Below are positions 8,988 through 13,604 of a stretch of DNA of 39,829 bases, in pieces. This DNA comes from Bacilli bacterium. GTDB lineage: Bacteria; Bacillota_I; Bacilli_A; RF39; UBA660. The translations under genes and the position numbers were made by a program. The number at the start of each line of letters is the position of its first letter. Positions within the stretch are counted from its first letter, which is position 1. The notes below the pieces were generated by a model, which was not told where the DNA came from, ran no database searches, and saw nothing but the letters and a program-made list of their open reading frames with translations. The stretch lies in the NCBI GenBank assembly GCA_017398945.1, contig JAFQES010000016.1, positions 1 to 39,829 on the forward strand. Direction: 5' to 3'.

Positions 8988-9011
8988 AAAAAAGAACTTT
9001 TATAAAAGTTC
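8988..9011 (-). terminator. Intrinsic terminator of the PilB-like gene
   Basis: Reading on the minus strand, the palindrome GAACTTTTATAAAAGTTC (8994-9011) is followed by six Ts (8993-8988). It overlaps the gene's stop codon. Confidence 0.75.
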
Positions 9012-10280
9012 TACATCTTGTTCGAGCTTTTCGTTTTCTAAATTCATGCTTCCTAGTAAAGCACGTTTTAATTCTTCATCATTTTCATCAATGTCTTCAG
9101 CTATATCTATTAAATTAATTATTTCTTCAAATGAAGTAAGCCCATTAGCTACCTTTTCTAATCCATCTTGTAACATCGTGATAGTCTTACCTTCTTCATA
9201 AACTAATTCTCTTAATTCTTGTTTTTTGACATTGTTTACAATAGCATCTTTCATACTTTGATCGATGCTTAATACTTCATGAACTGCGATTCTTCCTTTA
9301 TAACCATTGAAACATTCGTTGCAACCATGAGGAGAGTAAATATATTCAACATCTTTTTTTAAGACTTTCTTCAAAACACTTTTTTCATAAGCAGTAGTAA
9401 ATGTTTTTTCACGACATTTTGGGCACAAACGTTTAGCTAGTCTTTGGGCGATTACAGTATTTAAAGCTGATCCTAATAAATATCTTTCAACTTCCATATC
9501 TAGTAATCTTTCAATGGTAGTAAGGGCATTATTGGTGTGGATAGTAGATAATACCAAGTGACCAGTAATAGATGCACGTACAGCAATTCTAGCAGTTTCG
9601 TCATCACGAATTTCCCCGATCATAATAGTGTCAGGGTCTTGACGTAAAATGCTTCGCAAAGCCGCTGAAAAGGTTAGACCAATTTCACTCATAACTTGAA
9701 CCTGATTAATCCCTGAAATTTTCATCTCTACGGGATCTTCAACAGTAATAATATTAGTTTTAACATCATTTAATCTTTGTAAAATTGAATATACAGTAGT
9801 TGATTTACCACTACCAGTAGCTCCGGTGACTAATATAATTCCGTTTGGACTATTTATAGCTTTAAGAATCTTTTTTAAGTTTATTTCCGAAAAATGCAAA
9901 CTTTCTAATCCTTCTAAACTTTTACTATAATCTAAAAGACGAATAACAATTTTTTCACCATCTACAATAGGAAGGGAAGAAACACGCATATCTACAGAGT
10001 ACGTATCTATACTACCTTTAATAGCACCATCTTGAGGTAATCTTGTTTCAGTAATATTCATTCCTGAAATAATTTTAACTCTCGTCAAAAGATTTTTTTT
10101 GACAGCGTCAGGAACTTTAGTATATTCATGTAATTCGCCATCAACTCTGATTCGAACATTTAAAACATCGGGTGTTGGATCAAAATGAATATCTGATGCT
10201 CCAAATTTGTTGGCATCAGCCAATATTTCGTCAACAATTTCAACTATGGGACGATTTTCAAAATCAAATTCACGAAACAT
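9000..10280 (-). CDS. GspE/PilB-family secretion/pilus assembly ATPase
   Basis: A 426-residue hexameric ATPase of the type II secretion/type IV pilus/competence class. It has the N-terminal SDIHFDP segment (about 30), Walker A GATGSGKST (about 153-161), the Asp-box ITVEDPVE, Walker B DTIMIGEIRD, the His-box TGHLVLSTIHTN, and a C-terminal tetracysteine zinc site (LCPKC and GCNECF). The frame opens at GTG 10292, but that GTG is part of the AAGGTG ribosome site, so ATG 10280 is preferred. It is the only minus-strand gene and stands alone, without the usual GspF-type membrane protein or pilins, so partners must be elsewhere or the gene has another role. ComGA and PilB are both possible orthologues. 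Confidence 0.9.
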   Translation of the reverse strand: MFREFDFENRPIVEIVDEILADANKFGASDIHFDPTPDVLNVRIRVDGELHEYTKVPDAVKKNLLTRVKIISGMNITETRLPQDGAIKGSIDTYSVDMRVSSLPIVDGEKIVIRLLDYSKSLEGLESLHFSEINLKKILKAINSPNGIILVTGATGSGKSTTVYSILQRLNDVKTNIITVEDPVEMKISGINQVQVMSEIGLTFSAALRSILRQDPDTIMIGEIRDDETARIAVRASITGHLVLSTIHTNNALTTIERLLDMEVERYLLGSALNTVIAQRLAKRLCPKCREKTFTTAYEKSVLKKVLKKDVEYIYSPHGCNECFNGYKGRIAVHEVLSIDQSMKDAIVNNVKKQELRELVYEEGKTITMLQDGLEKVANGLTSFEEIINLIDIAEDIDENDEELKRALLGSMNLENEKLEQDVELL

Positions 10281-10312
10281 AAAAATCAACACCTTCTTTT
10301 TATTCTAAAAAT

Positions 10313-10418: not shown

Positions 10419-11129
10419 ATGGTACTTATTGAATGGTTTATTTATTTTATTATATATAGCTTTATAGGGTATATAGTTGAAGTTATGTTTATGAGCATTT
10501 TAAATAAAAAAATAATTAATAGAGGTTTTTTATGTGGCCCTATATGTCCAATTTATGGAATGGGAGCTGTTGGCATGCTTTTATTTTTAAAAAGATATAG
10601 ACATGATTATGTTGCTTTATTTATTTTTGGAGCATTAATTGCTAGTGTTTTAGAATACGTAGTAAGTTACACTTTAGAAAAAGTATTTCATAATAAATGG
10701 TGGGACTATAGCAACAATAAGTTTAATATTAATGGTAGAGTATGTTTGCTAAATGCTTTTTTATTTGGATTATGTAGTGTAGGATTAATTGAATTTATTC
10801 ATCCGTTTATTTCAAAATTTGTTTTAATAATCCCCAAAAACTTATTAGTCATTATATTTATAATTTTAATTGTTGTATTAATAGCCGACACCATTTTTTC
10901 CTGCATTGTAGCATATAATTTAAGAAGCAGATTAATAATTGTAGAAGAATTAAAAAATGAGAAATTAAGTATGTTACCAAATTTATTTGAGGATAAACTA
11001 AAACAGAAAGTTGATAATTTAAAAATGTATCCGAATAGATTATTAAAAGCTTTTCCAGATGTTTTAACTAATTATAAAGATGAATTTGATATTATGAAAA
11101 AACATAAAAGTAAGAAACTTAAAAAATAA
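10419..11129 (+). CDS. Multi-pass membrane protein, putative ABC-transporter type IV (CmpB, PF06541) family
   Basis: 236 residues with about five hydrophobic segments and a basic C-terminal tail. The motifs GFLCGPICPIYGMG and WWDYSNNKFNINGRVCL are hallmarks of the family annotated as putative ABC-transporter type IV (ABC_trans_CmpB), common in Firmicutes but of unproven function. The first 20 residues (EWFIYFIIYSFIGYIVEV) also fit. GGAG lies 6-9 bases before the ATG. It is monocistronic, between its own promoter and a terminator, so no partner is suggested. Confidence 0.82.
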   Translation: MVLIEWFIYFIIYSFIGYIVEVMFMSILNKKIINRGFLCGPICPIYGMGAVGMLLFLKRYRHDYVALFIFGALIASVLEYVVSYTLEKVFHNKWWDYSNNKFNINGRVCLLNAFLFGLCSVGLIEFIHPFISKFVLIIPKNLLVIIFIILIVVLIADTIFSCIVAYNLRSRLIIVEELKNEKLSMLPNLFEDKLKQKVDNLKMYPNRLLKAFPDVLTNYKDEFDIMKKHKSKKLKK

Positions 11130-11213: not shown

Positions 11214-13262
11214 ATGAAAAGAAAAGATATTATTTATCAAAGAGATTTAAAAGATTGTGGTCCTTGTTGTTTATTAAGTATAATTCGACATTATAATGGT
11301 AATGTTCCATTAGAGAAAATAAGATTAGATACTTATGCCGATGATCGGGGGACTAGTGCATATCATCTAATTCGAGCAGCTAAATCGTATGGTTTTGAAG
11401 CAAATGGGATTAAATGTCAAGATTTTAAAAATATAAAAAAATTACCAGTTATAGCTCATATAATTCTAGAAAACGGACTCAACCATTTTATAGTAATTTA
11501 TAAAATAAAAAATGATAAATTAACCATTATGGATCCGGCTAAAGGAAAAGTAGTTATAACTAAAACACAATTTCTTAAACTATGGGACAATATAATTATA
11601 AATTTTCGTCCCAAACATGAAATAATAAATTATCCAATGCAAATAAATGTAGTAAGCTTCTTTTTTAAAATTTTGTTTAAAGAAAAACAAAAATACCTTC
11701 TATTAATCATATTAAGTCTTTTAATAATGTTTTGTAACTTATTAAATGGCTTTTACTTAAAATTTGGTGACTTTCTCATCCATAATAATAGAACAAACTT
11801 AATATTAAAATTATTTATATCATTCATAATAATTACAATTTTTAAAACACTAATAACATTTTGGCATAATGGATTATACATTAATTTAAATAAGAATATT
11901 CATAAAAGTTTAATATCAGATTTTGTAAGTCATATCTTTTTTCTTCCTTTAAATATATTACATAATAAGACATCTGGTGAAATAATAACTAGGGTTAATG
12001 AACTAAAAGAAATAAAAGAATTTTTTTCAGAGATGTTTATTAATTTATTACTTGATGTTTTATTAGTAATAGCGAGTTGTGGTATGTTAGCATTAATCAA
12101 TTTAAAATTATTTTTAATTATTATAATTACATATTTGTTGTATACGATAATTTCTTTACTTTTTGCAAATAAAGTAAGCTCTAAAATTAGACAATGGATG
12201 GATACTGAATCTGAGTATAATACTTGTTTAATTGAGAAAATTGAAATGGCTACTAGTATCAATAACTTACAAATTAAACCACAAATAAATTTATGGCTTG
12301 ATTATAAATTATCAGAAGTAATTAAAACTGATGATAATTTAAAAAGGTTATTGAACACTGAACACGTTTTAAAATCAATTTTTAAAGATTTAGGTTTTTT
12401 GCTATTAAATACATATGCATTATATCAACTATTATTAAACAAGTTTGATTTAATAAATTTAATTACCTTTAATTCTCTAACAAATTGGTTTTCAACATCT
12501 TATGAAAATATCATAAGAATTATTCCTCAATTCTATTATCTAAAAAATTCAATATATAAAGTAAGTGAATTTAGAAATTTACCAAAAGAAAAAGATAATG
12601 GAATTTTTATTCCTGAATTTAATAGTATTCAAATTAAAAATTTACAAGTTTCCTATGACGATACCACTATAATTAATAATTTTAATTATAAAATAATGCC
12701 TGGAAAAAGTTATTTTTTAAAGGGCTTATCTGGTTGTGGTAAAAGTACTTTAATAAAGTGCTTATATAAAGAAATCAATCATTATCAAGGAGATATTTTA
12801 CTAGGAAAATTAAATTATAAAGATATTAGTGCTAAATGGATTAAAGATAACTTTACAATTATTAATCAAAATGAAAGTCTTTATTCTGATACTATCTATC
12901 AAAATATTATTTGTCATCGCAACATATCTAAAAAACAATTTAAAAGAGTTTGCCAAATATGCTTGATAGATAAAATAGTTGCTAAAAAAACTTTACGCTT
13001 CTTAAGTAACGTAGCTGATAGTCTTACTAATCTTTCTGGAGGTGAAAAACAACAAATTATTTTAGCAAGAAACTTACTTAAGAAAGGAAGTGTAATTATC
13101 ATTGATGAAGCCTTAAGTGAAGTTGATCTTAAAACAGAAATAGAAATTATTAGAAATCTAAAAAAACATTATAAAAATCAAACAATTATTTATGTAAGTC
13201 ATAAGAATTTAAGTGAACATTTTGATTTTTGTATAAACATGCCAAAAAATATTAATAAGTAA
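11214..13262 (+). CDS. Peptidase-containing ABC transporter (PCAT), C39 bacteriocin exporter
   Basis: 682 residues in the order C39 peptidase, transmembrane domain, ABC ATPase. The peptidase (about 1-130) cleaves double-glycine leaders; Cys15 (DCGPCC), His91 (LNHFIV) and Asp107 (MDPAKG) form its catalytic set. Residues about 155-440 hold hydrophobic membrane segments. The nucleotide-binding domain has Walker A GLSGCGKST (504-512), signature LSGGE (607-611) and Walker B IIIDE (Asp631, Glu632). Two double-glycine precursor genes follow immediately, which strongly supports bacteriocin processing and export. GAAGGGAG lies 5 bases before the ATG. No accessory protein or immunity gene is seen. Confidence 0.95.
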   Translation: MKRKDIIYQRDLKDCGPCCLLSIIRHYNGNVPLEKIRLDTYADDRGTSAYHLIRAAKSYGFEANGIKCQDFKNIKKLPVIAHIILENGLNHFIVIYKIKNDKLTIMDPAKGKVVITKTQFLKLWDNIIINFRPKHEIINYPMQINVVSFFFKILFKEKQKYLLLIILSLLIMFCNLLNGFYLKFGDFLIHNNRTNLILKLFISFIIITIFKTLITFWHNGLYINLNKNIHKSLISDFVSHIFFLPLNILHNKTSGEIITRVNELKEIKEFFSEMFINLLLDVLLVIASCGMLALINLKLFLIIIITYLLYTIISLLFANKVSSKIRQWMDTESEYNTCLIEKIEMATSINNLQIKPQINLWLDYKLSEVIKTDDNLKRLLNTEHVLKSIFKDLGFLLLNTYALYQLLLNKFDLINLITFNSLTNWFSTSYENIIRIIPQFYYLKNSIYKVSEFRNLPKEKDNGIFIPEFNSIQIKNLQVSYDDTTIINNFNYKIMPGKSYFLKGLSGCGKSTLIKCLYKEINHYQGDILLGKLNYKDISAKWIKDNFTIINQNESLYSDTIYQNIICHRNISKKQFKRVCQICLIDKIVAKKTLRFLSNVADSLTNLSGGEKQQIILARNLLKKGSVIIIDEALSEVDLKTEIEIIRNLKKHYKNQTIIYVSHKNLSEHFDFCINMPKNINK

Positions 13263-13275
13263 GGAGGTTTTAAAA

Positions 13276-13422
13276 ATAGCAAAGTTAACAGAACAAGAAT
13301 TGATGGTAGTTGAAGGAGGCGGGATTAAAGTTAGTGTATTAGCTGCAATAGCTGGATTTGGAGTATTCATTATAGGAGTTTTTGATGGTTTAATAAGACC
13401 ATTAAAATGTCTAAAAAGATGA
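13276..13422 (+). CDS. Double-glycine leader bacteriocin precursor 1 (apparent AUA start)
   Basis: A 48-codon frame right after the exporter. If ATA 13276 is the start, the peptide is (M)AKLTEQELMVVEGG followed by GIKVSVLAAIAGFGVFIIGV and a short basic tail ending RPLKCLKR. The leader matches the C39-processed L..(E/Q)EL..V.GG pattern. The mature part, about 33-34 residues, is hydrophobic with a GVFDG (GxxxG) motif, as in class IIb two-peptide bacteriocins. A strong AAGGAGG (13261-13267) lies 8 bases before the ATA; the only ATG in frame (13303) would delete most of the leader. So either AUA is used, or an ATG has mutated or been misread. Function is inferred from leader and context. Confidence 0.7.
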   Translation: MAKLTEQELMVVEGGGIKVSVLAAIAGFGVFIIGVFDGLIRPLKCLKR

Positions 13423-13577
13423 AAAGATTAAATAAAAATGAATTAATGCAAATAAATGGAGGAGCCATCTCAGCATCATTTATTAATGCTTTATCCAGAG
13501 CAGCATCAACACTTTTAAATCTCGGCCAAATTGTTGGAACAACAATAAGAAGATTCTTTTCTAAAAAATATTGTTAA
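13419..13577 (+). CDS. Double-glycine leader bacteriocin precursor 2
   Basis: 52 residues from ATG 13419, which overlaps the preceding TGA as ATGA; an in-frame ATG at 13407 would add four residues. The leader MKRLNKNELMQINGG is a textbook C39 substrate. The mature peptide has 37 residues, starts AISASFINALSRAASTLLNL, contains GQIVG (GxxxG) and ends in a basic segment with a terminal Cys. It is cationic and amphipathic. Together with precursor 1 it fits a two-peptide (class IIb) bacteriocin. The ATGA overlap and absence of a strong own ribosome site suggest coupled, roughly equimolar synthesis. No immunity protein follows before the terminator. Confidence 0.78.
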   Translation: MKRLNKNELMQINGGAISASFINALSRAASTLLNLGQIVGTTIRRFFSKKYC

Positions 13578-13579
13578 AT

Positions 13580-13604
13580 AAGATATCCGTAAAGGATATC
13601 TTTT
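13580..13604 (+). terminator. Intrinsic terminator of the bacteriocin operon
   Basis: Stem AAGATATCC/GGATATCTT (13580-13588 with 13594-13602), GTAAA loop, short T run. Confidence 0.8.

Follow-up and report, generated by a model that had tools for sequence, protein, structure and literature searches.

What do two very short genes encode that lie directly behind a peptide exporter gene in the genome of an uncultured member of the Bacilli? An earlier note on this DNA had read them as a compact two-peptide (class IIb) bacteriocin system with no immunity or accessory protein. In this study, the locus and its relatives were analysed computationally. The window, i.e. the whole stretch of 39,829 nucleotides that was analysed, belongs to a genome of 1.21 Mb (35 contigs, 95% complete). 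Its nearest same-genus record, referred to below as the sister species, is a 'Bacilli bacterium' from goat rectum (L011 and L013, which are one locus). The genomes compared are metagenome-assembled, and some truncated reading frames may be assembly errors.

The exporter gene and the two peptide genes

The features of the locus are collected in Table 1. The exporter gene is intact, as had been claimed, with all three expected domains (Peptidase_C39, E = 5e-34; ABC_membrane, 1.6e-17; ABC_tran, 3.9e-21). Comparison with PDB entries revealed full-length matches to PCAT1 (4ry2; E = 2.4e-81) and ComA (8hf4; E = 5.7e-60), and alignment with these two proteins showed that the peptidase residues Cys15, His and Asp are all kept. 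The ABC motifs are complete (Walker A GLSGCGKST, signature LSGGEKQQ and Walker B VIIIDEAL). From its family, the exporter would be expected to cut off double-glycine leaders and to export both peptides. The window's genome carries one such exporter and one peptide pair; no second copy of either was found in it.

Table 1 Features of the exporter-peptide locus, with positions in the window
Feature	Position	Strand	Basis
PF06541 (ABC_trans_CmpB) membrane protein; a neighbour, not clearly part of the system	10419..11129	+	
C39 peptidase-ABC exporter, PCAT/ComA type, 682 aa	11214..13262	+	Pfam domains, PDB alignment
Shine-Dalgarno site AAGGAGG of peptide A, 8 nt ahead of the ATA start	13261..13267	+	sequence, start-codon survey
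Peptide A precursor, 48 aa, probable ATA start; leader IAKLTEQELMVVEGG, mature part GIKVSVLAAIAGFGVFIIGVFDGLIRPLKCLKR (13321-13419)	13276..13422	+	
Peptide B precursor, 52 aa, ATGA overlap with A; leader MKRLNKNELMQINGG, mature part AISASFINALSRAASTLLNLGQIVGTTIRRFFSKKYC (13464-13574)	13419..13577	+	
Intrinsic terminator ending the exporter-A-B operon	13580..13602	+	1 found vs 0.3 expected

The description of the two short frames given in the earlier note held throughout. Both carry double-glycine leaders (LTEQELMVVEGG in peptide A and LNKNELMQINGG in peptide B), the mature parts comprise 33 and 37 aa, as estimated, and the two genes overlap at 13419-13422. Each mature peptide has a GxxxG motif (GVFDG in A, GQIVG in B), one Cys near its C-terminal end and a basic C-terminus, with net charges of about +3.8 (A) and +4.8 (B). 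Mature A is laid out as a hydrophobic helix with the GxxxG motif, followed by DG-RP-Cys. Single-sequence models predict one helix in each precursor (residues 16-46 in A and 6-50 in B, the latter cationic and with GxxxG). The inverted repeat of the terminator recurs in the sister species, and in the window's genome no third gene lies between B and the terminator.

These features are shared by the homologues (n = 87 for A and n = 84 for B), which were found as A followed by B in nearly all complete loci and which have leaders of uniform length. The leader ends in GG (rarely AG) in all A homologues and in GG in all B homologues, the two glycines of GxxxG are conserved in 98 and 99% of A and in 96 and 99% of B, and the Cys is conserved in 94 and 95% of A and B, respectively. 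The signatures of the two groups are F-x-x-G-x-x-DG-x-x-RP-x-x-C (A) and LGR-x-x-G[ST]-x-IRR-x6-C (B). Homologues lacking the GG site or GxxxG had been named as evidence that would speak against the pair; the homologues retain both.

The start of peptide A raises the suspicion that these are chance small frames or a decaying pseudo-locus whose A gene has lost its start codon, since no ATG, GTG or TTG lies at the proper place in the window, and the locus is also reduced compared with those of many relatives. The codon found 13 codons before GG is ATA (13276), and the same leader position is occupied by ATG in 69 of the 87 homologues. The sister species, however, shares the ATA start, with an intact Shine-Dalgarno site and without the internal TTG and ATG. 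At this leader position L025 and L084 also have ATA, L102 has ATT, and a further 13 homologues have TTG or GTG. The ATA and ATT starts (the window, L011, L025, L084 and L102) always stand behind a Shine-Dalgarno-like site. A begins with a codon other than ATG more often (18/87) than B does (5/84; P = 0.006), and ATA at 13276 is probably the best start for peptide A. Codon differences between the window and the sister species point the same way: 4 synonymous and 2 nonsynonymous in mature A, the leader of which drifts, and 7 synonymous and none nonsynonymous in mature B. Over 11 pairs pN/pS was 0.25-0.42, and by these codon comparisons selection on mature A and B is purifying, strongly so between the window and its sister. 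With the exporter, A and B also recurring together across the family, decay or chance is a very improbable explanation. The non-ATG starts of A show a reason why annotation misses such pairs.

Relation to known two-peptide systems and to pheromones

A precursor search against class IIb families, which the earlier note had proposed as a check, succeeded for one peptide of the two. Peptide A passed NCBIfam TIGR03949 (class IIb, lactobin A/cerein 7B; cut-off 21.5) with 24.0 bits, and this model is matched at E <= 0.1 by 36 of 37 A homologues; peptide B reached 19.4-19.6 bits, below the same cut-off, and passes no class IIb family cut-off. A GxxxG or similar motif in the helices of both peptides is a class IIb criterion (PMC8538875). 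The locus combines such motifs with further defining features of the class, namely adjacent co-transcribed genes, GG leaders and an intact C39 exporter. Class IIb systems are also marked by full activity only from the two peptides together, at a ratio of about 1:1, and by a membrane-associated immunity protein encoded alongside; an adjacent membrane immunity protein is absent from the window.

The resemblance to the TIGR03949 systems extends to GG leaders of about 15 residues, a dedicated C39 exporter and short helical peptides of cationic/hydrophobic character from neighbouring genes, with GxxxG in both. Unlike them, the system described here has a single conserved C-terminal Cys in both peptides, is near-universal and vertical within one family, and has no recognisable classical immunity gene, with B under the model cut-off. 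Of 37 A homologues, 30 match the beta-peptide model of lactococcin G/enterocin 1071 (NF038034, NF038035) with E <= 0.1, the best with 1e-7, and in the window's peptide the match spans from the leader into the mature part, but no A homologue reaches membership (15.2 for the window's A, compared with a cut-off of 37). The immunity protein of lactococcin G is the multi-pass LagC (PMC8538875), and no LagC-like multi-pass protein was found here. A further likeness is to Mycoplasma Mbov_0121 (NF045998) and MAG1140 (NF045999): the former is the top NCBIfam model of the exporter (319 bits, below the cut-off of 500) and the latter is matched by an accessory protein of relatives. As the two models bear adjacent numbers, this suggests a related exporter module in Mollicutes. 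Unlike there, the A/B pair is confined to one family among the sampled genomes, and the window has no MAG1140-like gene.

The exporter class is shared with ComA, which exports the competence pheromone ComC (8hf4), and this brings up the possibility that A and/or B are C39-exported signals sensed by a kinase. ComC and BlpC are likewise processed by C39 exporters, and 6 of 37 A homologues match ComC in Pfam, though weakly. In contrast to ComC, there are two conserved hydrophobic partners here, paired and both with GxxxG, and, unlike pherotypes, they keep their mature sequences from genus to genus. Among the recurring neighbours in 90 loci, neither a kinase nor a LytTR regulator was seen; an adjacent sensor kinase in relatives, which had been suggested as grounds for abandoning the bacteriocin reading, did not emerge. 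Among the matches listed, HATPase_c occurs on contigs C3 and C28 of the window's genome, not on the window's contig, and away from the locus in relatives. With no kinase seen nearby, a pheromone role is disfavoured and appears improbable.

As regards the literature, none of the papers listed for RF39 and bacteriocin deals with this system, to judge by title or abstract. The portion of the IIBacFinder atlas of gut class II bacteriocins considered here (PMC12648078) names no such family-wide system, and members may be included in it. The class IIb-like plan is already known; judged from the sequences, what appears to be new is the paired Cys, the third protein resembling B and the core, vertical distribution.

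Distribution, inheritance and genomic surroundings

The exporter was detected (E <= 1e-50, E-values being per genome) in 168 of 193 family genomes, one in each, and wherever the sequence behind the exporter gene reaches far enough, peptide A is present. Among 288 genomes drawn from the order, every one of them a member of this uncultured Bacilli family, 270 have peptide B. The family is probably to be placed in the uncultured order RF39 or close to it. A class-wide draw (n = 296) yielded full-length B in 35 family genomes, and outside the family the same draw gave no full-length B and only six leader-only matches. None of the sampled genomes from other families showed an A/B pair. The system is therefore a family-restricted, near-universal trait, and it is kept even in very small genomes of 0.5-0.6 Mb (exporter in G056, B in G060). 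The outside-family relatives were rejected as pairs, since the loci inspected (in f4 genomes) show instead a 139-aa protein with a GG leader near rplU. This conserved frame, a putative cargo with a leader of the double-glycine type (MQKLKDNELKDIKGGAASGALL...), lies at 4539-4958 in L188, 1443-1862 in L189 and 4614-5033 in L190, all in genomes of about 0.8 Mb from the same class.

In 34 of 39 testable cases the best match of the exporter is a member of the same genus. Many genera carry the locus upstream of rpsU-yqeY (of 90 loci, 32-36 have rpsU, encoding S21, on the downstream side and 22-25 have yqeY). These observations argue that the locus has been passed on vertically, at a chromosomal position of long standing. 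A mobile origin was rejected, B having no match in plasmids or phages. The neighbours in the window are PF06541, S21, YqeY, YqfD and a T2SSE ATPase. The last of these, PulE-like, is encoded at 9000-10292 on the minus strand, and pseudopilin-like genes (MKxKNGFIAxSLIYSFFLVF...) often follow the peptide genes in relatives (L018, L019, L021, L027, L037, L039, L047 and L051). The PF06541 gene lies directly upstream of the exporter gene, as it does in about 10-12 of 90 loci; its product is a possible but unsupported immunity candidate. No lanthipeptide-type or other modification enzyme was found among the recurring neighbours of the 90 loci. Other upstream genes recur in relatives that we take, by eye and not from a database, to be SpoIIIAH-, GerM- and GerE-like.

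A bacteriocin locus is typically mobile, scattered in its distribution and diversifying. The locus described here is, by contrast, near-universal, vertical and under purifying selection, and a recognisable immunity gene is missing in the window and in more than half of the relatives. That the pair is kept in almost every sampled family genome hints at a core trait rather than a transient weapon, and with a distribution so unlike that of the usual bacteriocin locus, killing activity should not be assumed. Near-universality and little diversification leave room for a core, non-antimicrobial role, in which the exported pair would assemble on or within the envelope of the producing cell itself, perhaps as a small pore of paired helices or as a spore/envelope factor; the third protein would then be a partner in the membrane instead of an immunity protein. 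Retention even in very small genomes, purifying selection on the mature parts, the many loci without any immunity gene and the housekeeping and sporulation-type surroundings (rpsU, yqeY, yqfD and the genes named by eye above) are in line with such a role. On the other hand, the neighbouring genes vary, so that a link to sporulation is not supported; the leader, the exporter, the GxxxG pair and the TIGR03949 match are all of the class IIb type; and in some genera (g45) the pair has been duplicated and diversified, as weapons are. On balance, an envelope role is unlikely, albeit one that deserves to be kept in mind.

Additional proteins in relatives and a model of the pair

The claim that neither an immunity nor an accessory protein is present is right for the window and its sister species. 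It fails for the family, in which the fullest loci read exporter, accessory protein, A, B and third protein. The accessory protein, one-pass and about 140 aa long, occurs in 47-56 of 90 loci, and it matches MAG1140 weakly but repeatedly (11 of 18 cases, best 1.6e-5); a MAG1140-like gene is absent from the window and its genus. The third protein comes from a short leaderless ORF, present in about 29 of 76 loci, which adjoins the B gene at its end or overlaps with it. The protein is built of a basic N-terminus and one hydrophobic helix followed by NLGRxxGTxxR, and it ends in the GxxxG segment known from B. When ORFs were chosen by position alone, without regard to the motif, the strict motif was present in 25 of 45 ORFs starting at the B end, compared with 0 of 466 control ORFs (small, of membrane type and from other parts of these loci). 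Profile comparison matched the third protein to the C-terminal half of B (94% probability, P = 1.5e-7) and gave no match to A. An immunity gene elsewhere in the window's genome was sought with the third-protein profile and rejected, the search finding nothing beyond peptide B (E = 0.0025) and some weak matches of partial length. From this likeness we infer that the third protein may be a membrane-held mimic of B that occupies A in the producer, and thus an immunity candidate. A helix that mimics one partner's GxxxG would be a simple and directly testable immunity mechanism.

Among loci having both A and B, the Cys is present in both peptides in 80 of 83, and one of the three exceptions (L094) is a truncated B frame. 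Cys-free pairs were seen among the loci fetched to look for exceptions. In genus g45, one A/B pair of the tandem loci L162, L179 and L184 is Cys/Cys and the next is Cys-free, and single Cys-free pairs occur in L159, L160, L170, L174 and L177; in genus g8, one locus (L045/L185) has no Cys in either peptide. The A-B-A-B arrays of g45 (L162, L179, L184 and also L016) represent local duplication and divergence of the peptides. The Cys is lost from A and B together, in at least two events, and this pairwise loss suggests a disulfide between A and B, which is the simplest reading, two loss events being too few for certainty. It points to a covalent two-peptide toxin.

The best explanation, and one that we regard as probable, is a class IIb-type pair that is processed and exported by the C39 protein, acts on membranes and forms a core trait of the family. 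The exporter, the GG leaders, the paired adjacent peptides and GxxxG in both across the family argue for the class IIb part of the original proposal, and the near-universal, vertical distribution argues against it. The exporter peptidase would cut after GG and release A and B, whose GxxxG faces would hold the two together, perhaps with a disulfide between the conserved Cys residues as a lock. The paired A-B would then enter the membranes of competitors, which are probably relatives, and cause these membranes to leak. In about a third of loci, the leaderless one-pass protein would sit in the membrane of the producer and occupy A, giving immunity; the window's genome, having neither the third nor the accessory gene, would be protected otherwise, e.g. 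by lacking the target. For the steps up to export we draw on the sequence and on what is known of the protein families; we infer pairing and killing. Class IIb immunity is in general poorly understood, and its mode of action is unknown (PMC8538875). The more specific version, in which a disulfide-linked heterodimer is a core family trait and self-protection, where present, comes from a membrane-tethered GxxxG helix of the B type capturing A, is possible though doubtful.

If the class IIb-type reading is true, nearly every member of a small-genome lineage of gut Bacilli would secrete the same two-part peptide, and this would be an unusually widely shared secreted peptide trait.
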